Positions 789-59,885 of a stretch of DNA of 64,000 nucleotides are shown piece by piece. Both the position numbers and the translations under genes were made by a program. The stretch is from Planoprotostelium fungivorum. Taxonomy: Eukaryota; Evosea; Variosea; Cavosteliida; Cavosteliaceae. The notes under the pieces are model-generated. The model searched no databases. It worked only from the letters and a program-made list of their open reading frames with translations, and was not told where the DNA came from. The number at the start of each line of letters is the position of its first letter. Position 1 is the first letter of the stretch. Location: positions 51,215-115,214 of the forward strand of contig MDYQ01000520.1 in assembly GCA_003024175.1 (NCBI GenBank). Direction: 5' to 3'.

Positions 789-1121
789 CATCCTTTTGCT
801 TATTCGACATCATCCAATTCCCTTTTGGGACGGTTCTAAGACGACACACGAATAACTTCTCGGTGGATGGTACCCTCAGCCCATGTCTGCAGAAGTTGAA
901 GCGTATGCTGGGCGACCCTCTACCCTCTAATCAGAAGAATATCGACCACTCTGAACGAGAGTCGTTCACTTCACGATCTGGGGATATAAAGCAGATGAAA
1001 CCGAAAAATATCATCTGATCATTGTAGATGATCAAGTCGCACAGCCGACACGTTAACAACCGCGAGCTCCGACTCATTTTCGCGGTGCGTCACATCGGAA
1101 ACCTCAACATCATATACAGAC
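789..1121. other. spacer and presumed promoter of the capping-protein gene
   Basis: About 330 bases with no supported exon. They hold the Pol III terminator of the tRNA and the presumed promoter and 5' UTR of the downstream gene. No clear TATA box is visible. Confidence 0.5.
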
Positions 1122-17792: not shown

Positions 17793-18080
17793 TGAATTTT
17801 TGTGGGTGCGCTACAACACAGCACATGAAATTCGAGTCGTGTACGGAAACAAGATTTAGTTTCCACGTGTCTCGAATTATTGTCCACGAACACCAAAATA
17901 CCCATCACGCCAATTAACCTGGTTCCTACCGTGGATTTTATGATCGAATGTGGTCCACAATATAAAATAACGACCCAGTGAAGATAACTATGGTCTACAT
18001 TGCATTAAAGAACACGTTTCACGTGTCTGCGATAACTGAGAAGGAGAGGACATCAGAAGATAGAGGTTCATACAAGAAGC
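17793..18080. promoter_or_regulatory. 3' spacer plus 5' flank of Hsp70 copy 1
   Basis: The last 60-65 bases before the ATG (CACGTGTCT...GATAACTGAGAAGGAGAGGACA) are closely matched upstream of copy 2 (CACGTGTCTAAGATAACGGGAAGGAGAGGACA, about 36682). The duplication therefore included the proximal promoter and 5' UTR. The shared CACGTG is an E-box/G-box core. I saw no perfect ER-stress element (CCAAT-N9-CCACG). Confidence 0.5.
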
Positions 18081-20033
18081 ATGCGGTCCGGCACAATCAC
18101 ATATACTTTGGCAGTAGTCGCAATCCTCAGCATCCTCTTGCCCACGGGAGGTGCTCTTGAAGACGACCGAGTTGAATGGCCAGTCATCGGCATCGACCTT
18201 GGTACTGCCTATTCGTGTGTTAGTGTAGCCAAGGATGGACAAGTGGAAATCTTGGAGAATGATCTGGGTGATCGGTGAGCTTTGATCTCACCTCACCTCA
18301 CCACGATCACAATTGACCAAGACCTGCAGCTTGACACCTTCTTATGTGGCATTCACTGACACAGAGACACTCATCGGAGAGGCAGCCAAGAGCCAGGCCG
18401 TTGTCAACCCAGAGAACACAGTCTTTGACGTCAAGCGTCTGATGGGAAGAAAGTACAATGACCCAGAGGTGCAGAGAGACAAGAAGCTGTACCCCTTTGA
18501 GATCATCGAGAAGGACAGCAAGCCTTACATCCGTGTCACTGTGAATGGAGAGAAGAAGAGCTTCAGCCCAGAGGAGATCAAGGCCATGATACTGAGTGAG
18601 CGTATAGTTGTACCTCTCTCGTTTCACTGACACATCTTCTCACAGCCAAGATGAAGGAGACTGCCGAGGCCAAGATCGGCAAGCCCGTAAAGAACGCCAT
18701 ACTCACCTGCCCTACCTACTTCAACGACGCTCAACGTCAAGCTACCAAGGAAGCCGGTATCCTTGCTGGTCTGGACGTACAGCGGATCATCAACGAGCCC
18801 ACGGCCGCTGCCCTGGCTTACGGTCTGGACAAGAAGGGAGAGAAGAACGTCCTTGTCTTCGATCTAGGAGGTGCCTTCGATGTGTCTGTCCTCACTATCG
18901 AAGATGGGATCTTCGAGTTGCTTTCTACCAACGGAGACCCCCAATTGAGAGGAGAATACTTCGATCGAAGAGTCATCGAGCACATCCTCGAGGTGTTCAA
19001 GGAGAAGACAGGAAAGGATGCCTCCAGCAACAGAAAGGCCATCCAGAAGCTGAGACGAGAGATCGAGAAGGCCAACAGACAGCTGATCTCCCAGCACCAA
19101 GTCACCATCAAGATCGAGTCCTTCCACGACGGTCTTGACCTCACCGAGACTCTCACCCGAGTCGAGTTCGAGCAGCTCAACTCTGATCTCTTCGACAAGA
19201 TCCTCAAGCCCGTTCAGCACGCACTCGACGACGCGAAGAAGAGGAGGGATGAGATCGACGAGATTGTTCTCGTTGGAGGATCCACCCGTATGCCCAAGGT
19301 CCAGCAGCTTCTCAAGGAGTTCTTCAACGGAAAGGAACTCAACAAGGGCATCGACCCTGATGAGGCTGTAGCCCACGGAGCTGCCATTCAAGGATGGGTT
19401 CTCTCTCAACAGGATCCTTTCATTATCGTTTGTGATTCCGCCCACTTCACTCTGGGTATCGAGACCGCCGGTGGAGTGATGACTCCCATCATCCACAGGT
19501 ACACCCTCGTCCCCACAAAGAAGTCCCTAGTCTTCTCCACCTACCAGGACAACCAAGACACAGTCTCGATTAAGGTATTCGAGGGAGAGAGATCGATGAC
19601 AAAGGACAACCATTTTCTCGGAAAGTTGGAGCTCACTGGCATCCCCCCCGCTCCACGAGGAGTGCCTCAGATCGAGGTGTCCCTCTCCCAGGACTTTGAT
19701 GGTGACCTCGTTGTGTCCGTTGAGGACAAAGGGACCGGTAATAAGAATGCCATCACCATCATGATCGATGCAAGATATACCAGCGAGGAGATTGAGAGAC
19801 TCATCCGGGGAGCCGAGATCGCGGCAGAAGAGGACAAGTTGGTCAAGGAGAGAGTGGAGGCCGTGAACGAACTCGAGAACTACGAAGATGTGAAGAACGC
19901 TTTTTCCGTGGTCGTGAAGGAGACCCTGTCGTGGTCAGACGAGAATCGTTCGGTGGCTACCAAGAAAGACGTCGACGAGCTACAGAAGGGCCGCAAAAAC
20001 ATCCAATCCGTCAACTGTGTGTCAACCCGGTGA
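18081..20033 (+). CDS. divergent BiP/GRP78-type Hsp70, copy 1
   Basis: An ER-type Hsp70 paralogue of about 615 residues. Exons are 18081-18274, 18330-18595 and 18646-20033. It has a hydrophobic signal sequence ([20 protein letters not shown]), an N-terminal ATPase domain, a linker and a peptide-binding domain ([35 protein letters not shown]). Compared with canonical BiP, the phosphate-1 loop DLGTTYS reads DLGTAYS. The phosphate-2 loop DLGGGTFD reads DLGGAFD, one residue shorter and without the conserved Thr. GGEDFD reads RGEYFD. The Lys of the VKRLMGR loop and the Glu of [12 protein letters not shown] remain. In the substrate domain the usual DANGIL strand reads DFDGDL. The C-terminus ends NCVSTR with no KDEL/HDEL-type signal. 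A normal ATPase cycle is doubtful. It may be a specialised or non-catalytic paralogue, or an early decaying copy. Confidence 0.9.
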
Positions 20034-25753: not shown

Positions 25754-25873
25754 AAGGCATGGCACTCTCTGTGGAGTGCGATTGTGCGGTGTTCGATGAA
25801 TGATGGCGAGCTACTTGGTATCCCTCTATTTGAACGAGAGAAAGAGTATTCTGGCGGAGTCGGCAAAAGGATG
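25754..25873. other. 3' spacer before tRNA-Glu copy 2
   Basis: Short 3' flank of the BPI-like gene. CAAAAGG at about 25864 is the Pol III terminator side of the minus-strand tRNA (read as CCTTTTG). Confidence 0.5.
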
Positions 25874-25944
25874 TTCCCTCACCGGGAGTCGAACCCGGGG
25901 CTCAAGAGTGAGAGTCTTGGATGTTACCGCTACACCATAAGGGA
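25874..25944 (-). tRNA. tRNA-Glu(CTC), copy 2
   Basis: The reverse complement is identical across all 71 nt to copy 1 at 718-788: the same acceptor stem, CTC anticodon and B box. The immediate 3' flank AACATCCTTTTGC is also the same in all three copies, so the duplicated unit was slightly longer than the tRNA. The following 235 bases to about 26179 hold no supported exon. Confidence 0.97.
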
Positions 25945-36439: not shown

Positions 36440-36741
36440 CGTGCAAAAATGTGGTTTCAACTTGAAATATCATTTGTAGACCCGCTTTTCACGGCCAGCA
36501 AAACAAATCTAAAGAGGAAGGATGGACTGATACCGTTGTTCCACCCTATCTGTCTGTATGAAGCGAACGTTTCTGTCTTCTGAAACGTACATGTTTTGTA
36601 CGACAACATACGAAAAGCTCGGTTCCGTACACGCGTTCTTTTATTTGATTGCCACAAACTGTCGCACCTTGAATTCTTGTCCACGTGTCTAAGATAACGG
36701 GAAGGAGAGGACAACAACTGAGAGAGAATCGTAAAAGAAGC

Positions 36742-38721
36742 ATGCGGTCCGGCACAATCACATATACTTTGGCAGTAGCCACAATATTCAGCATCCTCTT
36801 GCCTACGGGAGGTGCTCTTGAAGACGACCGAGTTGAATGGCCAGTCATCGGCATCGACCTTGGTACAGCCTATTCGTGTGTTAGTGTTGTCCACCAGGAT
36901 GGACAAGTGGAAATCTTGGAGAATGATCTGGGTGACCGGTGAGCTTTGATCTCACCTCACCTCACCACGATCACAATTGACCAAGACCTGCAGCTTGACA
37001 CCTTCTTATGTGGCATTCACTGACACAGAGACACTGATCGGAGAGGCAGCAAAGAATCAAGCCGTTGTCAACCCAGAGAACACAGTCTTTGACGTCAAGC
37101 GTCTGATGGGAAGAAAGTACAATGACCCAGAGGTACAGAGAGACAAGAAGCTGTACCCCTTTGAGATCGTCGAGAAGGACAGCAAGCCTTACATCCGTGT
37201 CACTGAGAAGGGAGAGAAGAAGAGCTATAACCCAGAGGAGATCACAGCCATGATACTTAGTGAGTGTCTGAACGTGTCTCTCTCGTTTCACTGACACATC
37301 TTCTCACAGCCAAGATGAAGGAGACTGCCGAGGTCAAGATCGATAAGCCCGTAAAGAACGCCGTACTCACCTGCCCCACCTCTTTCAACGACGCTCAACG
37401 TCAAGCTACCAAAGAAGCCGGTATCCTCGCTGGTCTGGACGTCATACGTATCATCAGCGAGCCCACGGCCGCTGCCCTGGCTTACGGTCTGGACAAGAAG
37501 GGAGAGAAGAACGTCCTTGTCTTCGATCTAGGAGGTGCCTTCGATGTGTCTGTCCTCACTATCGAAGATGGGATCTTCGAGTTGCTTTCTACCAACGGAG
37601 ACCCCCAATTGAGAGGAGAATACTTCGATCGAAGAGTCATCGAGCACATCCTCGAGGTGTTCAAGGAGAAGACAGGAAAGGATGCCTCCAGCAACAGAAA
37701 GGCAATCCAGAAGCTGAGAATCGAAACCGAGAAAGCCAAGAGACATCTATCCTTCCAGCGCCAAGTCACCATCGAGGTCGAGTCCTTCCACGATGGCCTT
37801 GACCTCACTGAGACTCTCACCCGAGTCGAGTTCGAGCAGCTCAACTCTGATCTCTTCGACAAGATCCTCAAGCCCGTTCAGCACGCACTCGACGACGCGA
37901 AGAAGAGGAGGGATGAGATCGACGAGATTGTTCTCGTTGGAGGATCCACCCGTATGCCCAAGGTCCAGCAGCTTCTCAAGGAGTTCTTCAACGGAAAACA
38001 GCCCAACAAGGGCATCAATCCTGATGAGGCTGTTGCCTACGGAGCTGCCATCCAGGGAGGATTTCTCTCTATAGAAGACATCCTATGTTCTGTTATCCTC
38101 ACGGATTACGTTCCCCTCACTCTGGGTATCGAGACCGCCGGTGGAGTGATGACTCCCATCATCTACAAGTACACTCTCTCCCCCACAAAGAAGTCGCATG
38201 TGTTCTCCACCTACCAGGACAACCAAGACACAGTCTCGATCAAGGTATTCGAGGGAGAGAGGTTGATGACAAAGGACAACCATCTCCTCGGTAAGGTAGA
38301 GCTCACTGGCATCCCCCCCGCTCCACGAGGAGTGCCTCAGATTGAAGTGTCCTTCACTGTGGACGTTGACGGTATCCTTCACGTATCCGTCGAACACAAG
38401 GGAATCGAAAAGAGGGAATCCATCACTGTGATGAAAGGAAACCACACTTGTTGGGAGATCGATAGACTTATTCAGGAAGCCACATCAGCCGCCGAGGAGG
38501 ACCAGATAGTGAAGGACAGAGTAGAGGCCGATGTGAACGGAAACGAGAGCTATGCCTGCCATGTTAAAATGTCCAACGAAGAAAGGGTCGGTGACAAGTT
38601 GGGAGCCGAGAAAGGCGCTGTCGTGATCAGACGAGATTCGATTGAGGGTCACCAAGGACAAAGCCAACAAACATCAGAAGGACTTTTGTATGCTGACGAT
38701 GGAGGTTTCCTCAGAAAGTGA
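36742..38721 (+). CDS. divergent BiP/GRP78-type Hsp70, copy 2
   Basis: Paralogue of copy 1 at 18.1 kb with identical intron positions (exons 36742-36938, 36994-37259, 37310-38721), about 624 residues. The signal peptide is nearly identical. It has the same DLGTAYS, DLGGAFD and RGEYFD departures from canonical BiP, so these changes predate the duplication. It also changes [11 protein letters not shown] to [11 protein letters not shown]. Unlike copy 1 it keeps a good DGILHVSVE strand in the peptide-binding domain and the [14 protein letters not shown] sequence. The C-terminal third diverges sharply, ending [12 protein letters not shown] without an ER-retrieval tetrapeptide. The central ATPase exon is almost identical to copy 1 over long stretches, whereas flanking parts differ. 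This suggests recent conversion or strong constraint in the centre. Confidence 0.9.
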
Positions 38722-39246: not shown

Positions 39247-40252
39247 CAAGACTGTGCTGCTCAATCGAGCCTAGAGAGGGCAGAAGATCTTCTGTAGTGG
39301 AGGAAAATGGTATCAAGGCGAGGATCTCGGGGTCTCAACTCCTTTGTTTACTCTTCTCACCTCGATTGATCCTGCGGTAACGTTATAAAAAGGCGGACGA
39401 TATGTTAATCAATCAGTTCACCTAACACTTTTTGCTGACCTCTATCGCGCTGATCTTCGTAATTCTATTATTTTACTTGGAAAGAGAGGAAATCGATTTA
39501 CGAAAGGGCTCAGAGAGTGTTGCCCATATCCATCCACTTTTCACGGTTATTAGAAAGAGATCGTTGATAAGAACTGACTCACCAAAAAGACTGCCCTACT
39601 TTACGATCTGTGTTGTGATTGGGAGGTGTTCGTATCGATGCGATGCGACCATCTGATATCATCGTCAAATTATGTTATTTGGAGGTGCTGGGCTTGCATT
39701 TGAAGTTCATATTTGTTGTGGGTGGCTTCGGCTGTGTGATGTATCCCCCGCATCGCTTTGCCGTGCATAGTTAACTTCCTGCTCTACAACGATATATAAC
39801 CTGCTATTAATAAACAACTTTTAGCTTATCGTCAATTGACGGTCTCATCTTACCTGTTAGAGGTGTGGATCCATCGCTGCAACGAGTGGTACCCTTAAAC
39901 GAGCCCCGCAGCTTACAGTAGAGCCGATTGATTTTGGCAAGGCCTTGCCGGCGCTTCGAGAGGACATCACATCTTCCGCAGGACACATACGTATCCCGGA
40001 TGTCTATTATTATGCAGGTGTGAGAAAAGAGTCCGCGCAAGGTGTCTGTGAGTGGTGGATTTCCATTCTTCAGAAACAGGAATCTTGGGTCCTTTTACCA
40101 GAACACAAAGTGACCCAAAAGATAGGACAACAGATTCCTCAGAGTACGTGAGATTCCCTGGAACTGTATGACTTAAGGTGATTTGTCGCAAACCTTTTCC
40201 AAACCACATTTGTCACATTTGTTCGTCACATTCTTTCCAACCCTCTGTCCTC
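39247..40252. other. 1-kb gene-poor spacer, possibly with an RNA gene
   Basis: The longest stretch without a supported protein gene. A TATAAAAAG at about 39386-39394 (+) and TATATAA at about 39793 resemble TATA boxes. A plus-strand frame at 39432-39656 begins with a hydrophobic segment but lacks an ATG. Around 39847-39960 there is a possible structured RNA (see findings). A 68-codon frame at 39945-40151 has no recognisable similarity. Confidence 0.4.
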
Positions 40253-43200
40253 ATGAAGATGGATCGCGTGTCGCATCTGCCGACCAAGATCATAATGATC
40301 ATACTCTATGTAGCCTCAGGTGGGTCTTGTACCAATTTACACACGATCGCGGCTGATGTCACCCAGCTGCTCTCGCATACCATACCAACCAGGCTGGACT
40401 TGATTCTCAGTTCGATTCCGTGTGTATGAATGCGACATTTGGTACGCATCCGATGGCCATGACTGCCGCCAACACCTCAGCCTTGTGCTGCCTCCTCTCG
40501 GAAATTACTGCACCGACCAATCTGTCGTGCAACTCCGCCTGTCCATCGACTTGGTACTTCAACAAGACGTCCAGCCAGTGTCAGTGCCTGGACTGCATCG
40601 CTCAGAACGCCTGCTCCAACGGAGTGAGAGGATGGGACAACGTTTGCCGGTGTGACCCTTCCAATCAGGCATTACAAGGTGAGTCTGAGGCTGTGACGTG
40701 GTGCGATGATTCATCGAAGGACAGCGTCCTCGTACACGGGGGAATGGATGTTGACGAACGACTGGTCGAACACCTGTGCCAACACATCACTACGGCCGTA
40801 CACCGCCACCGCCCGTGACAATCTGGCCTTCTGCTGCGAGGATGAACTCACACTGTCCTCGTGTACCTTCCAAAGCGCATGCGAGGAGGCTTGTAAGGGA
40901 CCGTACGCGTATAATCAAGGTCACTGTACCTGCCTTTCGTGTCGGCCACGCGAAGAATGCCCATCGCTATGTCCTCATGGGATCTGTACCTGGTCAGGAT
41001 GCACCTGCCCTCCGCCAGGTTCTGCCGGGGATGGTGAGTACTCGTCCACTGCTCGTGATCCTTCTGATATCTATCAGAGCCGTTTACTTCGGACAAATTA
41101 GTGATCAAGGGGGGTTCGAGCTGTCCGGACGATTCGATTCCGGTGTCAAATTTAGATGGCAAAGCGATGTGCTGCAAACAGCTGGAGGTCGGTCTCTGTG
41201 CCTATCAGAATCAGGTGGAGCGTCTCTGTCCTGGTCACTACTCGTTCGATCGTACCAGAAATCAGTACGCGTGTCTTCAGTGTACAGATGCATCTGCCTG
41301 TCAGCCCGTCTGCCACAAGGGAATATGCTCCTGGAACGGATGCGCCGTCAATGCCTCAATACCCAATCCACGTGAATGATAACATCATCATTTGACATCA
41401 TAATATATGATAATCACATGATTATGTCGTCTCACAGGTACACAGTGGTGTACTCGGGCTTGAATAATCTGGTTGTGACGGGAGGAAACTATCGGGCGTG
41501 CAGTGTGGACTCGACTCCCTACTACGCTCCACTTCGTAACAACACGCCATACTGCTGCCAGGTGTCGGAGTCCATATTGGGTGCCTCAATATCTCTCTGT
41601 GAGCAGACGTGCGGAGGTCTCTACACGACATCCTCTGGTGGTTGTACGTGCCTCGACTGCTCTCTGCAACAGTGCAGTCCACCTTGTACCGTCGGGAGTT
41701 GTACTTGGCAGGGATGTAGCTGCCAAATATCGGGTGATACGTTTGATCGATCGTGTCACGACGTGATAATGACGTCACCGTCAGGTATTCCACCGATATT
41801 TCCCGTGGCCGTCCGGTTTTTGCAGCAAACAGTTGCCTATTCAGTTTCTTCGTGTCCTACAAACACGACGGCTTATACCTCTATATCGAATGGCGCTGGG
41901 AACTGCTGCTCTGTCCTACAAGCACTGATCAGCTGCACCATCGACCAGTGCGAGACTCTCTGTCCCGGAGAGTACAGCTTCGATTCCAACGGCTGTCAGT
42001 GTCTCTCTTGCTCCCCATACGTCTGTCAGCAGTCCTGTACCTACGGTATCTGCACCTTTGGGGGATGCACGTGTCCTATCACTGATTACAGCAGTGTGTA
42101 CAAGTGTCGATGGCATTGCATCTGACATACTCAGAAAATTTCACGGCACAGAATTTTGTTGTCCCAGCAGGTCAGGACTCCTCATGTCCCGCCAACACTA
42201 TCTCGGCCTACTCTCCCGCTCAGAATGATACTGCCAAGTGCTGCCGTGTACTTGGTTCGCTCACCTGTGACCTTCAGAGTCGCTGCGAACACACCTGTGA
42301 AGGCGGACAATACTCCTGGGATCATGGTGTCTGTCAGTGTCTACAATGCGCAGATCACGCGTGCCAACCGAACTGCACGGGAGGAACTACCTGCACCTGG
42401 TCAGGCTGCTCAGCGAGCCGGAGCGATAGTGAGATGATGCGATGACCTCTCGCGTGCTGACGACGTCGACAGGCATCATCATCACTGGTGCGAATTGGAT
42501 GGCCAGGCAGAGCAATTCGGATACTCTGTGCTTCAATTCCACTTATTCTGCAGCGTACACGTCCAATCTGTTCTCCACGGCCGAGTGCTGCTCTCCAAAC
42601 TCCGCTCCGTCAGGCATCAACCAAGCACAATGCGAAGAACAGTGCGCAGGTCCTTATGAATGGGTATCGAATCAGTGTCAATGCTTATCCTGTATCAACT
42701 TTCCCTGTACACCCTCCTGTGACTTTGGTATATGCACATTCTCCGGCTGCAGGTGTCAGTATCCAGCTACCAATGGTGAGATGCCTGTCGAGTGGAGACG
42801 ACTCTGACAGGTGATCACAGGCATCATCACTGAGGTACATCGTACCTATCCGTCGCCCTCGTACGATACTAGCTGTCCGAATGGTACCTTTGCGGGAGAG
42901 AATTACCTGACAGGTCTCCCTCAATGTTGTCACGTCATAGAGACCGACGCCTGTGGTAGCCAAGATCTGTGCGAGAGGACGTGCCCTGGTGACTACCTGT
43001 GGTCCACGTCAACTTGTCAATGTCTGGCATGCCAGGTCCAAACGTGCTCCACTGATTGTCCCTATAGCCGCTGTCGCTGGGGTGGGTGCGGACCACTACC
43101 ATATGATGACACCAGTGAGCTGTCTGAGTCTGTCGACATTCGCAAACTCACGTTGTACAGGACTTTTGAGTGGATACAATCAACGCAATACGGAGGTGGC

Positions 43201-46200
43201 CTACGACTCGAACTGCACCATTGGCTCTGCCTTCACCTGGTCACTGAAACAAACAGCCGAATGCTGTAACGTGACAGCATCTATCGTCAGGGTATCGGTG
43301 GAATACTGCGAGCTAGCCTGTCGTGGGCCGTACACGTGGTCAACCTCCACCAGGACCTGTCAGTGCCTGGCCTGTCAAACGCAAACATGTGGTCCTCTAT
43401 GCGATCGAGCCATTTGCGCATGGCAAGGTTGTCAGTATTACACACTCACCAGCCCACGTAAGTGTACACCGTCGTCACTCTGAATCATCTTTGAACTCAT
43501 CTCATCCGTACAGAAATTTCGAACGGGATTATCGATCAATTTCAGCTATTGAATCTTTATCCTTCGAGAGACGAGCTATGCCCTCGTGGTCAAGTCGCTG
43601 CATATCCGAATTTAGGCAACCGCACGGCAATGTGCTGCACGGTGACAGACCGCGTGAGCTGCGCCGTCGCTCAGTGCCAAGCGATATGTCCCGGGAAATA
43701 CTCTTGGAACTCTGGAGTCTGCACGTGCCTCGACTGTCTGATCTATCCGTGCGACAAGTGTCGACGCAGCGTCTGCACGTGGGACGGTTGCATGGAGCCT
43801 GTTCTAGCGTACGAAGGTGATCTATCTGTCACTGAAATGCACTTCCTGACCCATATCCCAGGTCCTGCCGCCAACGGTCTGAACCAGCAGCTACCACTGA
43901 ACAGCCCCTGTACATCTCTCGTGCAGGGGGGTCTCAATACGACCAAGTATTACTCGAATAGAAATGAAGCAGGCTACTGCTGCTCGTCGGATGAACTCAT
44001 CCTAGGCGTGACACAGACGGAATGTGAGAACCTATGTGGAGGCCCATACGAAATTGGTGATGGTAGGACGTGTCGCTGTCTTCAGTGTCAACAACCATAT
44101 CATGATTGCAAGGGCGGAATATTCACCTTCTCTGGATGCCGCTGCGACTCTCTCTCATACGACGATGGTGAGTGCATTCATTCTAGTAGGGGAATCGGTC
44201 CCATTGATACGAAGGAAAGGTCTGTATACGGGCCTCGCCATGCTCGAGATAGCACAAGGCCGCGATATCTGTCCAACTCCCAGTATATCCCACTCGCAGA
44301 GTGCCAATGGGTCCCTTCAGTGCTGCTTGGAGGTGCCGCTGCGTGGCTGTCAGCAGAGTTCATGTGAAAAAGCCTGTTCCGGATACTACCGTTACGAATC
44401 GAGTAATTGTGTCTGCCTCGATTGTGTCGATTACGACTGCCTAAATTCCTGCACTCTCGGTGAATGCACGACAGACGGATGCAGCTGTAGGCCTAGGACC
44501 GATAACACTACGTCGCGTGAGTGAACTCATCATCAACGGCAGGCTGACGTCATCCGACAGTTATGTACCGATCCATGCAGCCTAGGCTACAATCGGACAC
44601 AGTTTGCATCACCGGAAGGGCTTACACGGATCCTTCCCACGTTCCGCAATGTTGCGACAGTATGCACACCTCCATGGTCTGCCATTCCGCGGATGACTGC
44701 GCCTCTACGTGCGGATCGGACTTTCTCTTCGTAGCCATCAACTCCCTCTGTACCTGTCTCAACTGTACAACCAACACCTGCAATCAATTCTGTCCACGAG
44801 GCGATTGCAACCTCGAAGGTTGCAGCTGTAAACCAGCCGCCGGTGGTGTCACGTCACGTGAGGACATCCGTCATCGTGAGAAGAGAGATGATGACGTATA
44901 GGCAGTGTCATACCGCTCAATGTACCCTCGAACGGACGACCCGATGTCCTGTGGTTCCATCAGTCGAACTTATACGGATGATTCGCATATCCCACAATGT
45001 TGCCAGAAGCTCGACACATCATCCATGTTCTGCATGTCATCCGCTGACTGTGCCTCTTCGTGCAGCTCCGACTATACCTTCATTGCTTCATCGTATCACG
45101 ACAGTCCCTCTTGCACCTGCCTCAACTGTACATCTCATGTTTGCAGCCAGTACTGCCCTCTTGGACTGTGTACGTCTGACGGATGCGTCTGTCGACCCGC
45201 CACAAACAGTGAAAATGATGGTGAGTGATGTTCAATATACCGGTGTGTGCCGTTAGGACTTTCATGATGACACTCGACAGTCTCGTACGCTTCCATGCAG
45301 CCCCGATCAGGTTTCGACTCATCCTGTCACTCTGGTAAGGCATACGAAGATGACAACTTGATCGCCTCCTGCTGTAAGACACGTCAAGCCACAAAGATGT
45401 CATGTGGATCAGCGACCGACTGCGCATCCACTTGTAACTCGACGTACTATTACAATTACAACACGGGTGCCTGTTCCTGTCTCGACTGTGCTACCTACAC
45501 GTGTAATTCGTGTGATGGGCTCTGCACGTGGACCGAGATCGAATCGAATCGTGAGACACCATTTCCGTCGGGCATCTCACTGATACTCTATTGCAGTGAC
45601 GAGTCCTACGTCTCAACGGATTATATTCATCGGAGCCCCTTCAGTCATCAATTCCACCGCAGATATCGGCCTGGTCGTCTTTGTTCTGTCACGGAACGGA
45701 TCCTGTCACGACGCCAACTTCTTCTGCCGCTTCGATGACATAATCGTCCCCACGTACACTGATGATGGCTACACCTACTTCTGCATCGTACCTCAACTTG
45801 AGTTACCGGTGACACCATCGGTCACGGTGGATAACGGGAACACCTGGGTCGATGCTTCACAGACCATCCATTTTACTGACCTCGCTATGGCCTCGGAAGT
45901 CGGTAGCGAATTCACTATCCACACGAGCGGAGATAACACGACCTTGAGTTGGAGCTCCCAAGCTGATATACCTCTGGAGGCCATCATATTATACCAGGGG
46001 TGGACACACCTGAATGCTGGAGCCGATCAGCCTGCGCTATTGATGGGTCATCTCCAGGCTGTTGCCATCGGTCTCCCAGGTTCAGGTTCCATCACGCTGA
46101 ATAATAGTGATTACACAGATGAAAGTGATGGTGGGCGCTACACGATCATGCTCAGCCCTGTTCCTGTCGTGAGTTCAAGCCTCGAATGTCTCACGCGCCT

Positions 46201-48584
46201 ACTGACATGTGCCAGAATGAGACTACACGCCGTAGCCTTGGCTCACTGATAAAAAAGGTCCCACCCTCTGCCGTTTGGGGTCTCATCAAAGCCAGCTTTC
46301 AGGCTTACAAGGACGGCTCCTCGGAGCCATACATGGAATTCATCAAGAAACAGGCAAAAAAGATCGTTGGAAACAAGGCCAAAGAATACCTCGGGGCCAC
46401 CAAGAGCAAGTTGGGTGTTGGCGTCCTCTTGGGGGGATACCTTGGCATTAAATTACTCCCGGTAAAATACGGACTGGGATTGGAGTAGGTGCATTCCTCG
46501 CAGAAAGATTTGTTCAACCTGTGAAGGTGAGAATGGACGAATCGATTGACGGATCTCACACATTTGGTTCAGTGGGGCTTTAAAGCGTACAAATATACAC
46601 GTTTGGCAATTGAGACAGCTTACAACGCCCACGCTTCTCTCTGCAACTGGAACTACTGCAGTCAACTCACGTTATGATCTGGTTCAACAAAGACATCGAC
46701 AGCAACCGCGCTGAATGCATATGACCAGGCCTGCCGAAATTACATCAAGTGTCGGGACGATAATCTTGGGGACGCGGCATGTCTGTCGATATGTGCAAAG
46801 AAGGCGGTGAAGGATATCAAAGCCCTCGCAAATAACCAACCTGTCTCCTGGGACAACAATTTTCCAGACTACATCGATCACAGCCACGACGGTAACCCCA
46901 CTGGTCTAGAGAAGGTGATCCGTGGCGTCAAGTCGGCGAATCTGACACGTACATAAGGACTTTGTGAATTGGGGTGTACCTTACTTCCGTGCGGCTGGAT
47001 TTCTGGCTGGGGGATTGGACACGGATCCGTTTCCGATACAGCGGCGCTCTGTCGACTATTTGTCAGACAGACCATGTAACATACCCAAAAATTACGCTGA
47101 TTCTCCTTCTCCTTTGAGCAAACCTCTCACATCCACGTCGGGTGGCGATCCACACTTCATAAGTTTCGATAACAAATTGTTCGACATGCAGTCTGTGGGA
47201 CAATTTCTGTACCTTTCGAGTAAGACGAGTAAGACGGCAGCTACAACGCTCATTCAGGTCATGACGAAACCATGGAACACGAAAGTCAGCGGTATTGTTG
47301 GGGTGAGATTACAATGAACCACGATGACATCATTGTGATGCGGATGACAGATGGCATTCAAGTCCATATACTCCTCCGATGTCGTACAGATCAGTAGCGA
47401 CAATACTGGTACCTACGTGATACTCAACAATCGCACCGTGGACGCCGCTTCAACTGTCCAGACCCGTGGAATCAAGGTCACAGCCACCACATACAGCATT
47501 TTTTTCATAGAGATGCTAGAGGGTGTCACCATCACTGCCGTGACCAACTCTGCAGCCTGGTCGGTTAGCATAACAGTATCTGTCAGCCTACAACGTGTAC
47601 AAGGCATCCTAGGCACACTACCAATGACATGCCCGGATGGTAACGTCATCACGTCGCTGGAACCTAATCAATTTGCACCCAACTATGCATTGGGAGAATG
47701 CTGGAGAGTTACAGACAGCGACGGTACGAGTCTCTTCACCGACCCAACAGACTGGAAGGCTCCAAGGGCATGGATTGGCGGAGGCAAGAAGAGGTCTGTC
47801 AGCGATTGCAGCTCGATCAAACCGTCGGACCTGAGAGCATTTTGCGAATACGACCAGGTCCAGGATCCAGACTTGCTAGACACCATCTTCGAGACGCTGG
47901 TCAGCACAGCCGACATCATCACCCTATCTCAGGTGAGTCATCCTCTTGTGACATGAGGTAGTTGACACGGTTTACAGTTGATCATCGATTGCTCCATCAG
48001 TCCAAGCGCAAGTTCGATCGTCTTCTCTTGGAGTGTCGATGCCGAGGGTATCAGCGGGACCAGGATAGAATACGCACAATCGAATGGTGAATTGGATGGG
48101 ATGTATTCTATACATGGCTGACGCGAATGTCAGGTGACACGTGGCTTTCATCTCAGACTGCTCTGTATGATACTCACGGCACTGTCACGTTCAATGGTGG
48201 GTCGTGTTGCTCAGTAGAATCTTGTTGACGTGGTGACGGTCAGGTCTGCCTTGTGGTCAGACCTCGGTCAGAATCGCTGCCGTCGTAGCAACGCAGGGTA
48301 ACATCACATCTCCATGGACATTGCGCTCTGCTTTCCTTCCGTGCCCACCAGCACCTTATTTGGCAAGTGGTAATCAGACTCAGACTGCTCCAAATCAGAC
48401 CTCAATCACTGAACCATTGAGTCCTGATTCTACAAGTGGACGTGTCGGTATCATTGTGGGTGCAGCAGTAGGCGCTACGATTGGAGTCATTGTGATTGTC
48501 ACCATTGCGGTAGCAACTTTCCTCCTTGTGCGACGGAGAAATGCGGCACAACCAGAGCAGCCCATGGAGCTGACATGCAGATGA
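40253..48584 (+). CDS. giant cysteine-repeat/VWD type I membrane protein
   Basis: A multi-exon gene for a surface protein of well over 2,000 residues. Exon 1 (MKMDRVSHLPTKIIMIILY) is spliced at about 40320-40367 to give a signal peptide ending VASAALA. Then come about 15 tandem cysteine modules (40.4-45.55 kb), nearly one per exon. Next is a beta-rich region (45.6-46.2 kb; RIIFIGAPSVINSTADIGLV, FTIHTSGDNTTLSWSS). It is followed by a helical region with clustered cysteines (NWNYCSQL, CRNYIKCRDD, DAACLSICAKK). A von Willebrand D domain lies at 47.13-47.7 kb, with the hallmark GGDPHFISFDNKLFDMQSVG and VQGILGTLPMTCPDG. A Thr/Ser/Pro stalk precedes one transmembrane helix (VGIIVGAAVGATIGVIVIVT) and a 20-residue basic tail. 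VWD proteins (mucins, SUSD2, otogelin) act in adhesion or gel formation, so an adhesin or cell-coat role is inferred. Many N-glycosylation sites (NxS/T) are present. Confidence 0.85.
40420..45550 (+). repeat. array of about 15 cysteine-rich modules (coding)
   Basis: Each module is about 75-95 residues with the pattern C-x(12-20)-CC-x(8-12)-C-x(3-5)-C-x3-C-x(8-16)-CxCLxC-x(3-5)-C-x(2-3)-C-x(2-4)-C-x(3)-GCxC. Good examples are at 41437-41730 (CTCLDC...CTWQGCSC), 41784-42090 and 42472-42770. Modules generally sit in separate exons bounded by G|GT introns, which fits expansion by exon duplication. The last three (44563, 44905, 45283) share a SMQPR/SMYPR start, a PQCC or ASCC element and DCAS(T/S)C, so they form a younger subgroup. 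Confidence 0.85.
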
Positions 48585-48905
48585 GACAGAACACTTATCA
48601 GAGCCGACAACAGCGTCCACCCCATAAATTGTTTGCCAAAAATCTCCGACTTTGAAAGTGTTAACTTTATTATTATGTGCGGTCGTCAATAACCATCTAT
48701 GCTTTATTTGTCAACGAGAAGAGAAATCAAACATGAGTACATGATTCGGTTTTTCCGGTTGGTGGTCAAATGGTGCATTGAAAATGGATCACTTCTCTCC
48801 CGACTACTGGAATATGCACGACGAAAAAATTAGTGATCCAAATGCATGGATCGACGGTTAAATCTCCTCATATTATGTATAACAGATGGTATCAGCAAAA
48901 GGATG
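48585..48905. other. 3' spacer
   Basis: AT-rich 3' flank of the VWD gene, running to the third tRNA. No exon was seen. Confidence 0.5.
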
Positions 48906-48976
48906 TTCCCTCACCGGGAGTCGAACCCGGGGCTCAAGAGTGAGAGTCTTGGATGTTACCGCTACACCATAAGGGA
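48906..48976 (-). tRNA. tRNA-Glu(CTC), copy 3
   Basis: A 71-nt sequence identical to copies 1 and 2, with the CTC anticodon, same arms and discriminator. It has the shared 3' flank AACATCCTTTTGC (minus strand) and a 5' flank CACCAATCCC in common with copy 2. Confidence 0.97.
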
Positions 48977-49330: not shown

Positions 49331-49669
49331 CTAAAGCTCACCGGTCGCTCGCACCCCTCCTGAGGCCACCTCTGAACTAGATCTGCGGCCACACACCGAG
49401 GGCATCGATTTCCGATAGAGAGGGTGCCTTCTATCGAGCTTTTGGACGTGTTCGTGCGTCCAGTTGGGTGGAAATGTTCCGTTGTCGTCATAGAGATGTT
49501 CATACGAAGAAAATCGGTCGAAATATCGTCGAAGTCTAAGGCCAGTCAGCCGAAACTCCATCATCAAAGCGCCCGCTCGTCGGTCCCTCATGAGGTAAAT
49601 ATATAGAATCCATAACCGATAGAGGATCGCTCGTTCTGGCAGCATCATCGGGCGCGATTCGGTAACCAT
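49331..49669 (-). CDS. possible small basic protein
   Basis: An uninterrupted frame of 112 codons, divergent from the histidine kinase (start codons 3 bp apart). It reads MVTESRPMMLPERAILYRLW, then GALMMEFRLTGLRLRRYFDR and NGTFPPNWTHEHVQKLDRRH. No family is recognised. A downstream intron with donor GTGAGC near 49340 could add a short exon. It could equally be the antisense of the kinase 5' UTR and promoter. Confidence 0.3.
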   Translation of the reverse strand: MVTESRPMMLPERAILYRLWILYIYLMRDRRAGALMMEFRLTGLRLRRYFDRFSSYEHLYDDNGTFPPNWTHEHVQKLDRRHPLYRKSMPSVCGRRSSSEVASGGVRATGEL

Positions 49670-49672
49670 TCC

Positions 49673-52600
49673 ATGCAGATGCTTCCACCACAGACGGTAT
49701 TTGATGGACCAAACGATGAACTCAATGTGAAGACGATACTCAAGATCTTGTCATCCCGCCATTTCCTGGTTATGATTGGAGGAACACTCATTCTGACCCT
49801 CGCCGTGGGCCTTACGCTATTCATCACTTACGAATTCTTCTCTTACCTATCCATCATCTTAACGGGAGCAATGTGTCTTCTCATTTTTGCAACATTTGTA
49901 TTCGCTCAATCATACTACTTGGATGGATTCTTTGTCATTCTAGGAAATGCATACTTCTTCGTGGGTATCATCCTACTCCTCATGAAGTCAGCCACTTTGA
50001 GTCTCTTAGGCGTGGAGGTGTGTAAAATATTCCATCCCATTAGACATCATCTAACTCAAAGACACAGCCGTTCTCACAAGGACAAGTTTCTCTTCAATTA
50101 GAGATAACGTCCAGAGTCATCGAGACATTTGCATTCTTTTTGGGATTAGCCCTCTGTCATCGCAGTTACAAGGGTTGGAAGGTGTGTCTGTTCCCCCATT
50201 CCCTCTTCACGGTCATCTTATCGTCATATCACTTGATGTTATGTCGTTGATCGATAGAACGTGAAGACTGATGAGAGAAGGTTGCCCTCTTACCCTTTCT
50301 TTTGTATCTAACATTCACTACGCTGGTCCTCTGTGCCATCTTCTGGTGGGAGATTTTCCCGGACGTAGTCACTGTGGTCATGAATACGGATGGCAGTTTC
50401 ACGTATACTTCCACCACATTCAGACAGGTAATTCCTCTACCATCGTCCATTTCATCACATGCAACAAGCCACATTGTCACATTAGACGTCGTCACATTCG
50501 ACATATCACATCAACACATCATCACATCACATCGTCACACTAGACATCATCACATCCGCCATATCATCACATCACACATCACCACATTAGACATCACATC
50601 AAGCACATCATCTCATCCTCCATCACGTCTCACCCTCTCCAGATCGTGGGAGCCCTGTGGTGCTTCTACTTCCTTCTCATCCTCATCTTCCTCGTCCTCC
50701 GGAGGAGACACTTCAGCAACACCGTATTGATCTTCCTCTTTGTCGGCATATCCCTGCGCCTCCTCAACCTCATCTTGAACGCCGCGAGGAGAGAATTATC
50801 TTCTTCACCTCTCGACGTGGCCAATCTTTTGACGAGGTGAAATTTCGAGTCGAATCTCGTCCGTCGTGTGGTCACGTGACACACCACCCAGGCTGGCCTC
50901 TTTCAGTTTCATCTACTTTTCCGTCGGTACTTGTATGTTGAGAGATCCACTCAGCACTCTGAATTATTCTCTCAATCTGAAGCAAGCCGCCTTGGACAAC
51001 CAAGGGGCAGTCATCGCGTGGATGATTGATCAAGTGAGGGACGACGTTCGATTCGCATCGTGATGCCACCGCAGGTTCCATCCATCTGTATTCTCACTGA
51101 CGATCAAGGATCCATCGGTCACATCAACAAGTTTGGAAACGACCTCATGAAGACCACAACGTGAGTGTCACATCGACGATGCGTCACATCACGATTGACG
51201 TCATCAGGGAGGCCATTCAGGGAGAATCGTTCTTTGATTTCATTCGATTCGAGTCCGAGTCCATGCGGCAGAACGTGCAAGATCAATTCAAACACTTGAT
51301 CAAGAACAACAGCTCGACCGGTCTCGTCGGTTTCACGTCCACGAGCACCGCTTTAGAGGGTGAAGATTGTGAAGTCTCACGAGTTGATGGAGAGCAGCCA
51401 ATCGAGTCATCGAATGGACGATCAAGTTGGTCAAGAGTGGAACTCTCATCTCCAGCAGCACTTCATCCAATAGTACGCACTTGGGGGAAGAGACTCCGAA
51501 GGGTTCTCACGCCGCTCCGACGGGTGAATCATCTCTACGTTTCGATTTTTTCCTTTTTCTCCTACTTTTATCTCTCACCTCTTATGTTTTGTTGTCTTAT
51601 TTCTTCTCTCTCTTATTATATTCTTTTATCTTTTTTTTCTCTCCTCCTGTATTTTGTTCTCCCTCTTATTGTTATCGTTCTCTTATTTCTCTCAGCATCA
51701 GAGACGGAATCGCTCGTCAACGTCTTATGTATCGGGCGTGATACCACACAAGAAATAGAGAAGGAGAGACTGCTCAGGGAGGCCAGAAATAACGCCGAGA
51801 AATTGATTCTCATGCAAGAGAATTTCATCTCCAACACTTCGCACGAGGTGAGAGAGATCCACGAGGAAGAAGACATTCACACGTGTACAGCTGCGAACAC
51901 CTCTCAATTGCATCGTTGGAGTCACAGACATCCTCCTCATGCAGGAAGATCAGAACGAAGCCGACGTCGAGATGGTGATCTTTTATTTCATTTTATTTCG
52001 TTCGAATTGGGACGGGAGGGCTGAACGGAAACCAGGTGACCATGATTAAAACCTCGGCCAATTCACTTTTGAATCTCGTGAACGATCTGTTGGAATTCGC
52101 CAAGTTGAAGCAGGGAGAGATGAAATTATTCTACGCACCGATACGATTGAGGCCATTTGTAGAGTGAGTCATCATCATCATCATCATCAGACGCACATGG
52201 TCATCAGACGCACATCGTCATCATCATCATCACAGACATCCATGTGACGTCTGTGCAGGAATGTCATCATGAGCATGAGTGTGTTGTATGAGAAGGGAGG
52301 AACTGACATGTGTTACACCATCGCGAGAAATTGCTTCGATGCCATAGAGAACGATCAAGATCGATTGGGACAGATCCTGTACAATCTCATCAGGTGAAAA
52401 TCGATCTACAACGCGCCGGTTTCAGCTGACATAAAGATAGTAATGCGGTCAAATTCACACAGATGGGGCAGATCTTAATCCACATCGAGATGGTGATGGA
52501 AGATGGCCTCAGGCGGCCCAGCAGCATGCCACACATTCGGTGAATGATCGAGATCGAGACGTTCCACTGAAATTTCGCAGATATTCCGTCTGCGATTCCG

Positions 52601-55281
52601 GTATCGGTATCTCAAAGGAGGACATGGGAAATTTATTCACGAAGTTATTCCAGAAACACGCCGCGGTGAACTACAACGAGACATTTTTTTCCGGCTGATT
52701 GTAGATAGGTCGAAAAACACGGAGGAAAGAAGGTAGGCTCAGGTATCGGTCTATCTGTGACGAAGCAGTTGGTGCAATTGATGGTGAATGAGTCTGTCGA
52801 TGTGAGATGTTGACATGGATAGGGAGGAGAAATCACTGTGGAGAGTGAAGTAGGGGTAGGCACAACGTTCACTGTCACGTTACCTGCTTTCAAAAACATT
52901 CCAAAGGTGAAGCCTTTTATTTCGATTTATTCTTTATTCTACGTGGCCGTCTCATCCAATGTCTTTGTCGTTATTCGAATCGATTGAAAACGAAAAGAAT
53001 TGAAAACGAAGAGAACGATGAAATTAATGTGGAAATAGGAGGGCATACCTTATGTTACGAATGCCAACGATCCTTATTCTGGCCCGGGCCATTTTGTCCT
53101 CATCTGCATCAAGAACGGAGCCATATTAGACATCATCAGCACATCTCTCAGCACCGAATACGGTTTCGACTGCCGGGCTTTCACCGGAGTGAGAGTTCTT
53201 CCGATCTTCCGGCATCTACACAGTTGTAGATCGATCTGACTCGGACAGGTGACGCAATTGAACGAAGCGCTGAAAGAATTCATTTCGAGCGGAGCCGTCC
53301 CAACTGTTCAGACGAAATTGTCCATCCTCATCGAGATGAAAGATCTAGCCAAATTAGACGCGGGCACCATCCGCGTTCTACAACAAGCCAAGATCGGCGT
53401 CAGGGTGAGGCCGATCCGTTCGCCAAATGAATCTGACGCTCCATCAGATCTTGATGTCCCAGGGACATCTGATGAGCTCTTCACCGAACGAGTTGCCATC
53501 TCACTTCATCAAGAAGATGAGCATCAGCGTCATACGTAAGCCGTACAATATCCACAAGATCGCATCCATGCTGAGGACAAACTTTTCGCGTGGATCGATC
53601 GACAGCGACAGAGGTTCTACACCGCAGACTTCAGCCACTTCAAACGGTGTGTCTGTTCGGAGCGTGTCGAAATCGACCGTGACGGAGAGATTCCACGGGG
53701 GTAGTAGGGGTGAGAATTGGGAATGCGTACGTACGGTACTTATTGGGACAGGCGGAGCTTCTTCCCAGGCGAGCAGTGGATCTCACGTCAGTAACATGTC
53801 GTCCAGGAGTGTATCGAGAATACCATCGGAGAGACATCTGGGTCAATCGAGGGCGTCTCATTCGTCTGAAACATCACACAAGACGCAACACACAGTGCCA
53901 GAGCCAGAGCAGGTGCGTTGTAGATCGACATCACATCAACATCACATCGATATGACATCCACTCACACGTACAGATTCCCCTGATGTCCACCCTCGACAA
54001 ACCACAGAAGACTCGATCTCGATCAGCATCCAATTCTGTGGAGATGCAAGTCATCCGACAGATCGAAGAGATATCACGCAGGACGACACCCGAATCAATT
54101 GTCTCTCCCATCCATCAAGTGACAGAAGACAGAGATAGATCCCCCACAACAACGCAACCACCCGTCTTCGATGCTGCTCCCACTCTTGATTCGAAGGAGG
54201 AGGGAGAGAGGGAGAGTGGAGAGGGAGGAGAGATGAGAGAGGAAGATACACATCAGACACCGGTCTTCTCAGCAGCACCCTCTTTCACTGCGGCAGCACC
54301 CACCTTCACAGCACCCTCTTTCACAGCAGCAGCACCTTCTTTCACAGCAGCAGCACCCTCTTTCACAGCAGCACCTTCTTTCACAGCGGCAGCACCTATC
54401 TTCACAGCCATACCCTCTTTCACACCAGCAAAGAAGAACAGCACTTCATCAGGCAACAAACAGAACGTCACATCAACAGAGAGCAGCTCTTCCATATCTA
54501 CAACCAGCACGCAGAAGACATTCGAGAGAGGATTCGTAGAGAACTCGAAATTGGACCCAGCCGGACAGAAGGCAGAAGTGAGTGGAGAATCCGTGGGACA
54601 ACGACTGACATACGACAGATGCAACTGACAGCCGCTCTGGCTCAGACTGCCATGCAAAAGAACAGCGAGAACGAGAGAGACCTGAAGATCCTCATTGTAG
54701 AGGATGACAAGACGAACCAGAAGGTGAGACTCTTTAGAAGGTGAAGCTGAGAGAGGCAGGTCCTGCAGTTGATGTTGAAGAGGATACCGGGGGTGGCTTA
54801 TGATATCGCTGAGAACGGTAGAGAGGGTGTGGAGGCGTTCATGAGGTTGAGGACAGAGGGGAAGACTTACGATGCTATCTTTATGGACAGGTGAGACAGT
54901 CTACAGCTGCAGTCTATATTATATTCTATATCACGTTCAATAGCTACATCCTACAGCTGCAGTCTACATCAAGTTCTATAGTAGCTGACAATTTCATCAG
55001 TCAGATGCCAGTCATGGATGGTGCACAAGCGACAGCTGCCATGAGAAAGATCGAAGAAGAAGAAGAGGTGACATCGAATCGGTTTTTAAGAGGTCTGACG
55101 AGTGCAGGCGACCGGTGTGAACCTGGGAAGGACATACATCGCAGCCCTCACGGCTAACGCAGTCATGGATGAGAAGAATCAACTCTTTAGAACCTTGGTC
55201 GATGATTATCTCACGAAGCCGATCAATTTCAAGACGTTTTCGGACAAGTTGGTGTGGATCAGAGAGAAGGTGGGACGATGA
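49673..55281 (+). CDS. hybrid histidine kinase with membrane sensor domain
   Basis: Multi-exon two-component kinase. The N-terminus has about seven membrane helices (HFLVMIGGTLILTLAVGLTL, LILIFLVLRRRHFSNTVLIF). Their spacing and motifs (YYLDGFFVILGNAYFFVGI, VSLQLEITSRVIETFAFFLG, WEIFPDVV) resemble the MASE3 sensor. A PAS-like segment follows (SICILTDDQGSIGHINKFGN). Splicing at 51848-51890 gives the H-box NTSHELRTPLNCIVGVTDIL, with His at 51842-51844. The HATPase part has LGQILYNLISNAVKFT, VCDSGIGIS and GSGIGLSVTKQLVQLM. A degenerate receiver-like region (52.9-53.6 kb) keeps the SVIRKPYNI element but lacks a clear Asp triad. A Ser-rich linker with (S)FTAAAP repeats leads to an intact receiver: ILIVEDDKTNQK, phospho-acceptor Asp at 54886-54888 (IFMDSQMPVMDG), YIAALTANA, DYLTKPINF. 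The stop is at 55279-55281. A further 39-nt intron at 55270-55308 could extend it to 55341. Confidence 0.9.
50440..50640 (+). repeat. ATC/ACA-rich microsatellite in a kinase intron
   Basis: A tract of CATCACATCACATCGTCACACTAGACATC-type sequence between the exon ending TYTSTTFRQ and the exon starting IVGALWCFYFLLIL. It is intronic despite open frames across it. Confidence 0.75.
54262..54435 (+). repeat. in-frame PSFTAAA repeat in the kinase linker
   Basis: About nine tandem copies of a 21-24 bp unit (CCCTCTTTCACAGCAGCAG) encode SFTAAAP/SFTAAP peptides between the first, degenerate receiver and the C-terminal receiver. Length is likely to vary between strains. Confidence 0.85.
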
Positions 55282-58846: not shown

Positions 58847-59885
58847 TTAATAGCTCCTGGGACGAAGCGAAGATGTAAAGCCACGTTTGCAATTGTCGAG
58901 CAGCTGCACCACCTCCGTGTGTCCTCCTTCTGTTGCTCTTCTCTTGGCATCGTCTAGCTGTGTAGATGTATCCAGACGAGGACGAGACAACAGTAGCTCG
59001 ACGACATCAGTGTGACCTCTTCCTGCTGCTTCTCTGATGGCGAGGTTGTTCCGTGCTGATGGGTCCACACGTGAGTCGGATAAGAGTAGCTTCACAGTCT
59101 CACTGTGGCCCATACTGGCTGCTTCCATGATGGCGTAATTGTTCATTGCTGATGGGTCCAGACGTGGGTCAGATAAGAGCACCCTGACAGTCCCACTGTG
59201 GTCATAGATGGCTGCTTCCATGATGGCGTAATTGTTCATTGCTGATGGATCCACACGTGAATCGGACAAAAGCAGCCTCACAGTTTCATTGTGGCCCCCT
59301 CTGGTAGCTTTTCCGATGGCGTAATTGTTCTGTGATGGGTCCACACGTGGATGGGACAAGAACAGCCTGACAGTCTCACTGTGACCATAACAGATGCATT
59401 CTGGATGGCACAATTGTCACTTGCTGATGGATCCACACGTGAATCGGACAAGAGCAGCCTCACAGTTTCATTGTGCCCCCCCTCTGGCTGCTTCTATGAT
59501 GGCGTAATTGTTCTGCACTGATGGGATCTACACGTCCAGCTCGGCTCGAGTCAACAGAAAGCGCAATGACTCCACATTGCCTCCTTCTACTGCCAGAAGC
59601 AGATCGTCATCACTCAGACAATCAGTCAAGCTGTCCACTGAGAACGTCAGAAGGGCTTGTCTTCTATCGAGTGTCTCACCTATGTCTTTCCACAACTTGC
59701 ACCTCAGCCGAAGGACGGCAAACTGTTTTCTCTTTGTATTGGGTGATTCCACATCCAAAGCCAAGTGCAAGATCACTTTTGTAACATCGTGACTGGAGGA
59801 GACGATACCGTTAGACGTCAGCTGTCTCCTCTGCTGCTGGAATGATGATGTCGCAGATGTTGTTCAGAATAAAATGCGGCGGCAT
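58847..59885 (-). pseudogene. decayed F-box/ankyrin-repeat gene
   Basis: Five or more ankyrin repeats of 31-33 residues share a near-identical motif (GHSETVRLLLSDSRVDPSAM, NNYAIMEAA). They end in KRGFTSSLRPRSY with the stop at 58847. Upstream, an F-box-like start (MPPHFILNNICDIIIPAAEE, ATG at 59883-59885) lies in a different frame from its continuation (VTKVILHLALDVESPNTKRK...LWKDIGETLDRR). That continuation then meets an in-frame TAG near 59530, just before a repeat reading NNYAIIEAARGGHNETVRLL. Another one-base shift separates DNCAIQNAS from YGHSETVRLFL near 59400. No GT-AG intron of plausible size repairs all three. I call it a pseudogene, though assembly errors in the repeats could mimic this. 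Confidence 0.55.

Follow-up and report, generated by a model that had tools for sequence, protein, structure and literature searches.

One gene for a probable surface protein

The window analyzed here is a 64-kb stretch of DNA from Planoprotostelium fungivorum, an amoebozoan of the Variosea. At positions 40253-48584 (+) it carries one gene of 25 exons, separated by 24 introns of 41-111 nucleotides (nt), which encodes 2,370 amino acids without a frameshift. From N- to C-terminus the product comprises a signal-like segment, an array of 15 cysteine-rich modules, a beta-rich region, a von Willebrand D (VWD) domain opening with a GDPH motif and a transmembrane segment (Table 1). The gene model was obtained by dynamic programming with GT..AG introns. 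Two introns, of 51 and 45 nt, were added by hand at the borders of modules 4/5 and 10/11, where they split exons that would otherwise hold two modules. A Kyte-Doolittle scan (19-residue window, mean of at least 1.6) marked two hydrophobic segments, residues 8-27, resembling a signal peptide, and residues 2322-2356, followed by Arg, as transmembrane segment; both calls are by hydropathy alone. Cysteine accounts for 210 of the 2,370 residues. We regard the product as a probable membrane-anchored surface protein. The original prediction, made from the DNA letters, of a single continuous amoeba gene with signal peptide and C-terminal transmembrane helix agrees with this model.

A full-length protein search (6,523 candidates of 5.8 billion) returned at E <=0.001 only an independently deposited P. 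fungivorum protein, which has 2,472 amino acids and is a 99% match to our model. Residues 825-2370 are identical, except that the deposited protein retains 15 residues at the border of modules 10 and 11, where the model has an intron, and module 8 ends earlier at its 3' end in the deposited version. The deposited N-terminus uses other upstream exons in place of our exon 1. It corresponds to frames at about 39643-40148, joined via an intron of ~220 nt, long for this gene, and likewise contains a hydrophobic stretch. These upstream frames may be part of another gene. We prefer the model start because its 47-nt intron is in keeping with the remaining introns, and its signal-like segment with a product that is secreted and rich in disulfides. 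The differing deposited N-terminus and the weaker splice sites at the introns after exons 18, 19 and 20 might mean that at least two distinct genes, or one broken gene, mimic a single one. This is very improbable given the single open model with no frameshift and the deposited model, which links module 1 with the transmembrane segment through the same set of exons and is identical over residues 1024-2370.

The deposited record is named 'keratin-associated protein 10-9-like isoform 1'. Cysteine richness is the feature in common with keratin-associated proteins, from which this protein differs by its modular architecture, signal-like N-terminus and membrane anchor. No keratin-associated Pfam family was matched up to E 1, whether seven modules were scanned together or all 15 singly, and an NCBIfam scan of the deposited protein matched no family. 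The database name 'keratin-associated protein-like' is thus unsupported, and the record needs a new one, as the present name masks a probable surface protein.

Fifteen homologous modules, one per exon

The array consists of exactly 15 modules, one in each of exons 2-16, of 89-104 residues and 11-14 cysteines each, and extends over ~1,500 residues. All 16 introns bounding these exons are in phase 1; phase 1-1 exons are the usual mark of exon-shuffled extracellular modules. In a leave-one-out test with a profile hidden Markov model (HMM), every module was recovered with 35.1-73.7 bits, whereas the best of 500 shuffles per module never exceeded 11.9 bits. When the module HMM was applied to the six-frame translation of the window, every one of its 13 matching frames belonged to this gene, two of them carrying two modules each, and the next best score elsewhere in the window was only 7.8 bits.

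Mean identity over all module pairs is 28.8%. Modules 13-15 form a subgroup with 39-50% identity and a tree support of 0.963. Adjacent modules are more alike than expected by chance over all 15 (p = 0.008; p = 0.26 for modules 1-12). How alike modules i and j are predicts how alike modules i+1 and j+1 are (rho = 0.33 with p = 0.001 by permutation; modules 1-12 alone, p = 0.0024), so duplication probably copied multi-exon blocks as well as single exons. The count of about 15 modules, their placement one per exon and a younger 3' subgroup had all been read correctly from the DNA. Growth by exon duplication, proposed at the same time, stands as far as duplication is concerned; duplication of single exons alone is insufficient.

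Co-occurring cysteines at the module junctions

Two cysteine slots vary along the array: C50, an extra cysteine between the CC pair and the helix, and C96, the last cysteine of the GCxC motif. At 13 of the 14 junctions, C96 of one module and C50 of the next are jointly present (nine junctions) or jointly absent (four). The ends of the array fit this pattern, in that module 1, with no module before it, lacks C50 and module 15, with none after it, lacks C96. The agreement has a Fisher p of 0.005 and a module-order permutation p of 0.0024, or 0.001 with the two free ends included. Among the 13 shifts from -6 to +6 it is found at +1 only, and inside one module C50 and C96 agree in 6 of 15 cases. 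The total cysteine count is even in 7 of the 15 modules, rising to 14 of 15 once C50 and C96 are set aside. Within this core, C55 and C70 are both lost in module 3, and two cysteines of the C80/C84/C89 triplet are lost together in module 1 and again in module 11. C55, in the helix, and C70, in a strand, probably form one internal disulfide. The simplest reading of the C96/C50 pattern would be a disulfide staple between consecutive modules, to which we give about an even chance. If the staples are real, sequence alone would reveal which joints of a rod are locked and which can bend.

Several points weigh against a staple. At the sole disagreeing junction, between modules 9 and 10, C50 is present without C96, and module 15 is the only module with an odd core count. 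The pattern was noticed post hoc, among 13 shifts and 105 slot-pair tests, of which 63 were distinct, and a p of 0.005 fails Bonferroni correction. Furthermore, the junctions are not independent because of exon-block duplication and the sister pairs 3/6 and 7/11, which are weak (0.31 and 0.51) and have common junction states. Without modules 13-15 the Fisher p is 0.015. The agreement may instead have been inherited from duplicated exon blocks, with these cysteines free or bonded elsewhere, an explanation that we hold to be possible, if tentative. It would draw on the block-duplication signal (rho = 0.33, p = 0.001), the states that modules 12-14 have in common, the two weakly supported sister pairs and the post hoc nature of the observation amid many tests. 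On the other hand, the modules at the both-absent junctions (3-4, 6-7, 8-9 and 10-11) form no single clade in a tree with mostly weak nodes, and the even core count shows no obvious dependence on descent.

Relatives and predicted fold of the module

Scanned together against Pfam, the first seven modules matched no family. Scanned singly, the 15 modules gave only DUF4802, in one of 15 at E 0.007, which we take as a chance match. A profile of the 15 modules found a single, non-significant match among PDB sequences (E 7.9) and, among 60 candidates from the protein collection, none at E <=10. This profile search reached proteins of ~56-178 residues and the full-length search those of ~1,300-4,150 residues, both by shared 5-residue words; mid-size multi-module proteins and far relatives lie outside this reach. 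No relative of module 5 was present in bacterial, archaeal and viral contigs, where only close relatives are detectable. Five queries of the organism's own genome (two modules, two VWD exons and one SUSD2) revealed no second gene, apart from one weak match on contig C151 that resembles a module (E 0.07, interrupted by one stop), which we attribute to chance as its translation is without the module cysteine pattern. Among the papers listed by a literature search that covered few subscription journals, none dealt with this protein or with amoeba VWD proteins. Within the limits of these searches the module family is unassigned, with no significant match in the HMM/Pfam, PDB and protein-collection searches, in agreement with the original prediction of a novel module. 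To speak of an undescribed surface or coat 'system', as the original prediction did, is too wide for a single gene of which five genome queries found no second copy.

AlphaFold models of modules 5 and 7 (the latter trimmed) concur in a strand-strand-helix-strand-strand order; they cover single modules and were read for their element order. In 14 of the 15 modules a CxxxC motif is followed, after 10-16 residues, by CxCLxC. The predicted element order, the CxxxC helix, the CxC strand and the character of a disulfide-rich extracellular unit are features in common with WSC domains (yeast Wsc1, Kremen1) and PAN/apple domains. In contrast to WSC, the module has 11-14 cysteines (eight in Wsc1), adds a C-terminal part of the form CxxxCxxGxCTWxGCxC and is missing the CGG motif, and it has no significant sequence or fold match to either WSC or PAN.

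The module might nevertheless be a far-diverged WSC/PAN domain and not a new fold, which we consider rather unlikely. Apart from the element order in the two models, this reading can point to yeast Wsc1, in which C49-C69 and C53-C71 link the helix CxxxC to the strand CxC (PMC9024836); the joint loss of C55 and C70 in module 3 would suit the C49-C69 pair. Moreover, with an HMM of this genome's WSC stretches the modules average 2.0 bits above their own cysteine-preserving shuffles. However, under this HMM, as under one of the PAN_4 stretches, not a single module exceeds the 99th percentile of its own shuffles, and PAN_4 gives a module mean that does not surpass the shuffle mean. The WSC HMM was built from 10 of 15 fetched loci, after removal of four copies (contig C120) and of one locus interrupted by an in-frame stop; for the PAN_4 HMM, 7 of 15 remained once truncated loci and loci with in-frame stops had been dropped. 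Pfam PF01822, PF00024 and PF14295 matched none of the 15 modules at E <=1, and Foldseek found no PDB match to the module models at E <=0.001. With hhalign, the module gave 0.3% against WSC and 0.5% against PAN_4, a weak test given that the control pair of WSC and PAN_4, which have a common fold, reached only 4.7%. Assignment of the module to WSC or PAN by sequence is therefore unsupported by hhalign, which misses the control pair too, and by the HMM shuffles.

The genome itself contains 34 WSC and 63 PAN_4 stretches at E <=0.1, which may reflect a large repertoire of surface proteins that bind walls. One four-WSC stretch (L024-L031) occurs on both contigs C5 and C120, with equal scores in three of the four, and represents either a recent duplication or an assembly duplicate.

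The VWD base and predicted cleavage at GDPH

VWD bases of the GDPH type are known from animal mucins and adhesins. The domain found here scored 24.4 bits (long query) and 27.3 bits (short query), above the Pfam PF00094 cut-off of 22.9. It opens with GGDPHFISFDN and is diverged in its remainder, so that the description 'canonical' given to it earlier fits no more than this start. By protein search and BLASTP the nearest VWD is that of SUSD2, which the original prediction had named with MUC4 among the best-known carriers of the domain. A search with the tail (best 7,994 candidates by shared words) listed at E <=10 only viper SUSD2 (E 0.19), which BLASTP aligned with 59 bits and 24% over 245 columns, from YLSDRPC to TSLFT. 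A SUSD2 query in the P. fungivorum genome matched only at this gene (E 4.4e-5). Among PDB sequences, only FCGBP matched the tail with an E of 1 or better (4.8e-5, spanning 43 residues), and this stretch does not pass when taken by itself. A genome-wide VWD family search returned no matches and missed this gene too, making it uninformative on absence.

With SUSD2 and MUC4 of animals the protein has in common a GDPH-type VWD near the membrane, a C-terminal anchor and the predicted cleavage. It differs from SUSD2 by its amoeba source, by the 15 unlike modules in front, and by Gln at +14 from the Asp of GDPH, where viper SUSD2 has Lys. AMOP (PF03782, before the VWD) and C8-3 (PF23263, after the VWD) were not found up to E 10, though detected in SUSD2, and 358 and 112 of 1000 shuffles, respectively, reached the alignment scores; Sushi and Somatomedin B domains gave no Pfam match. 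By eye, a TIG-like exon 17, an AMOP-like middle and a C8-3-like tail are collinear with SUSD2; the likeness lacks significance, with 84, 358 and 112 of 1000 shuffles reaching the respective scores, and we rejected these assignments. The D assemblies (VWD-C8-TIL-E) of VWF, gel-forming mucins and FCGBP likewise start with GDPH, and Asp, His and Gln are as in FCGBP D10. Unlike them, the amoeba VWD is membrane-anchored and is without most of the usual cysteines, and neither C8 nor TIL was matched in Pfam up to E 10 by two pieces running from the VWD to the end of the protein. The closest counterpart of this VWD is the one in SUSD2, and the two may work alike; we do not class the protein as a SUSD2 member.

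Both GDPH (Asp1955) and Gln at +14 are retained in the amoeba protein. In the D10 domain of FCGBP, mutation of Asp or His in GDPH abolishes Asp-Pro cleavage and mutation of Gln4094, located 14 residues past the Asp, reduces it; an autocatalytic route was proposed, and the purpose of the cleavage is termed unrevealed in that paper (PMC10880436). SUSD2 is cut at GDPH with both chains remaining together at the cell surface, a cut for which the authors suspect a serine protease, while in MUC4 the N-terminal fragment is secreted following GDPH cleavage (PMC6696261). Both papers deal with human proteins (PMC10880436, PMC6696261). Autocleavage of the amoeba VWD at GDPH is likely, and a fair prediction, because GDPH and the assisting Gln are retained. 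Two observations speak against it or its consequences: viper SUSD2 has Lys in place of this Gln, and the strand before GDPH contains no cysteine that could tie the cleaved chains. If true, a diverged, probably self-cleaving amoebozoan VWD under modules that yielded no relatives in these searches would offer a distant comparison for the purpose of the cleavage.

Proposed architecture at the cell surface

New in this analysis are the tie to SUSD2-type cleavage with its assisting Gln, the WSC/PAN-like element order and the junction cysteines. Taken together, they can be put into the following picture. A type I surface protein would be secreted via its N-terminal segment, and its ~1,500-residue array would form a stiff rod with ~six internal disulfides in most modules. 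C96 of module n would be bonded to C50 of module n+1 at nine of the 14 junctions, and the five junctions without a cysteine pair would serve as hinges. The rod would be mounted on a beta-rich/helical base and the SUSD2-type VWD. Self-cleavage of this VWD at the Asp1955-Pro1956 bond, in the secretory path, would leave a large outer and a small membrane-bound chain, joined by non-covalent contacts or by disulfides that lie outside the first VWD strand. One transmembrane segment with a short tail would anchor the protein. The least certain step is the role of the rod, possibly adhesion or the spacing of the glycocalyx on the cell surface; any role in adhesion, spacing or a coat is a guess from architecture alone, which counts against the picture. 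As a whole, we judge a stapled, membrane-tethered adhesin or glycocalyx rod to be about as probable as its opposite. The more specific statement, that in a unicellular amoeba a lineage-restricted repeat forms an inter-module stapled, hinged rod whose base is a self-cleaving VWD of the SUSD2 type, is rather doubtful.

The same features might belong to a coat, stalk or cyst-wall protein, in which the GDPH cut frees the 15-module chain into the matrix, a transmembrane stub remains and the cysteines cross-link the coat. Such a function would be in line with the high cysteine content (210 of 2,370), the strand before GDPH with no cysteine to retain the chains, and the secretion of the MUC4 N-terminal fragment after cleavage (PMC6696261). 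Nevertheless we think it unlikely, as a transmembrane anchor exists and the even core count of 14 of the 15 modules favours closed modules over free cross-linking thiols.

Protostelium aurantium presumably belongs to the same organism group as P. fungivorum. It is described as fungivorous in an abstract, and the modules could accordingly be imagined as a prey receptor binding fungal or bacterial walls in phagocytosis. Their element order and CxxxC/CxC motifs resemble those of WSC/PAN, PAN domains mediate binding of protein and carbohydrate (PMC9024836), and stretches of both PAN_4 and WSC abound in the genome. We regard this function as improbable: the module showed no sequence kinship to WSC/PAN and no PDB fold match, and in the short cytoplasmic tail no signalling motif was recognised.

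Table 1. Features of the module gene, in window coordinates (C50, C55, C70, C94 and C96 are cysteine slots of the module)
Feature	Position	Strand	Remarks
Exon 1 and start of exon 2, signal-peptide-like N-terminus, residues 1-26	40253..40377	+	intron 40320-40366 inside
Cys module 1, exon 2	40367..40678	+	C50 absent; C96 at 40651
Cys module 2, exon 3	40725..41033	+	C50 at 40862; C96 at 41006
Cys module 3, exon 4	41078..41371	+	C50 at 41197; C96 absent; C55 and C70 both absent
Cys module 4, exon 5	41446..41733	+	C50 absent; C96 at 41721
Cys module 5, exon 6	41785..42093	+	C50 at 41934; C96 at 42072; AlphaFold query 1
Cys module 6, exon 7	42135..42428	+	C50 at 42266; C96 absent
Cys module 7, exon 8	42473..42775	+	C50 absent; C96 at 42754; AlphaFold query 2 (trimmed)
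Cys module 8, exon 9	42821..43114	+	C50 at 42952; C96 absent; shorter in deposited model
Cys module 9, exon 10	43161..43457	+	C50 and C96 both absent
Cys module 10, exon 11	43514..43816	+	C50 at 43660; C96 absent
Cys module 11, exon 12	43862..44167	+	C50 absent; C96 at 44143
Cys module 12, exon 13	44220..44516	+	C50 at 44348; C96 at 44486
Cys module 13, exon 14, younger subgroup	44561..44857	+	C50 at 44680; C96 at 44827
Cys module 14, exon 15, younger subgroup	44906..45220	+	C50 at 45031; C96 at 45190
Cys module 15, exon 16, younger subgroup	45281..45550	+	C50 at 45403; C94 and C96 absent
Exon 17, beta-rich region	45597..46168	+	TIG-like by eye only; no Pfam match
Exons 18-21 (part), between exon 17 and VWD	46216..47143	+	mainly helical by eye, Cys present; no Pfam family above cut-off; same in deposited model
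VWD domain (PF00094)	47144..47617	+	intron 47303-47350 inside
GDPH motif, predicted Asp1955-Pro1956 cleavage	47144..47155	+	Gln at +14 is 47189-47191
Post-VWD part	47618..47932	+	SUSD2 alignment extends to TSLFT, 47726-47740
Exons 23-25 (part), membrane-near region	47978..48434	+	no Pfam family above cut-off
Transmembrane segment, residues 2322-2356	48435..48539	+	RRR at end
Short cytoplasmic tail and stop codon	48540..48584	+	gene model

Other features of the window

Three copies of tRNA-Glu (CTC) are present, at 718-789 (+), 25873-25944 (-) and 48905-48976 (-), with 98.9-100% identity including short flanks; the last sits directly downstream of the module gene. Further downstream, frames at 49616-54628 (+) contain transmembrane-like stretches and the motif 'FISNTSHEVR', which we take to recall a histidine kinase H-box. 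Two stretches of 1.68 kb, at 18020-19682 and 36682-38352, are 92% identical, and each lies in or beside a long frame that is Hsp70-like by eye. Imperfect tandem repeats with offsets of ~93, 186 and 279 bases occupy 58965-59535.

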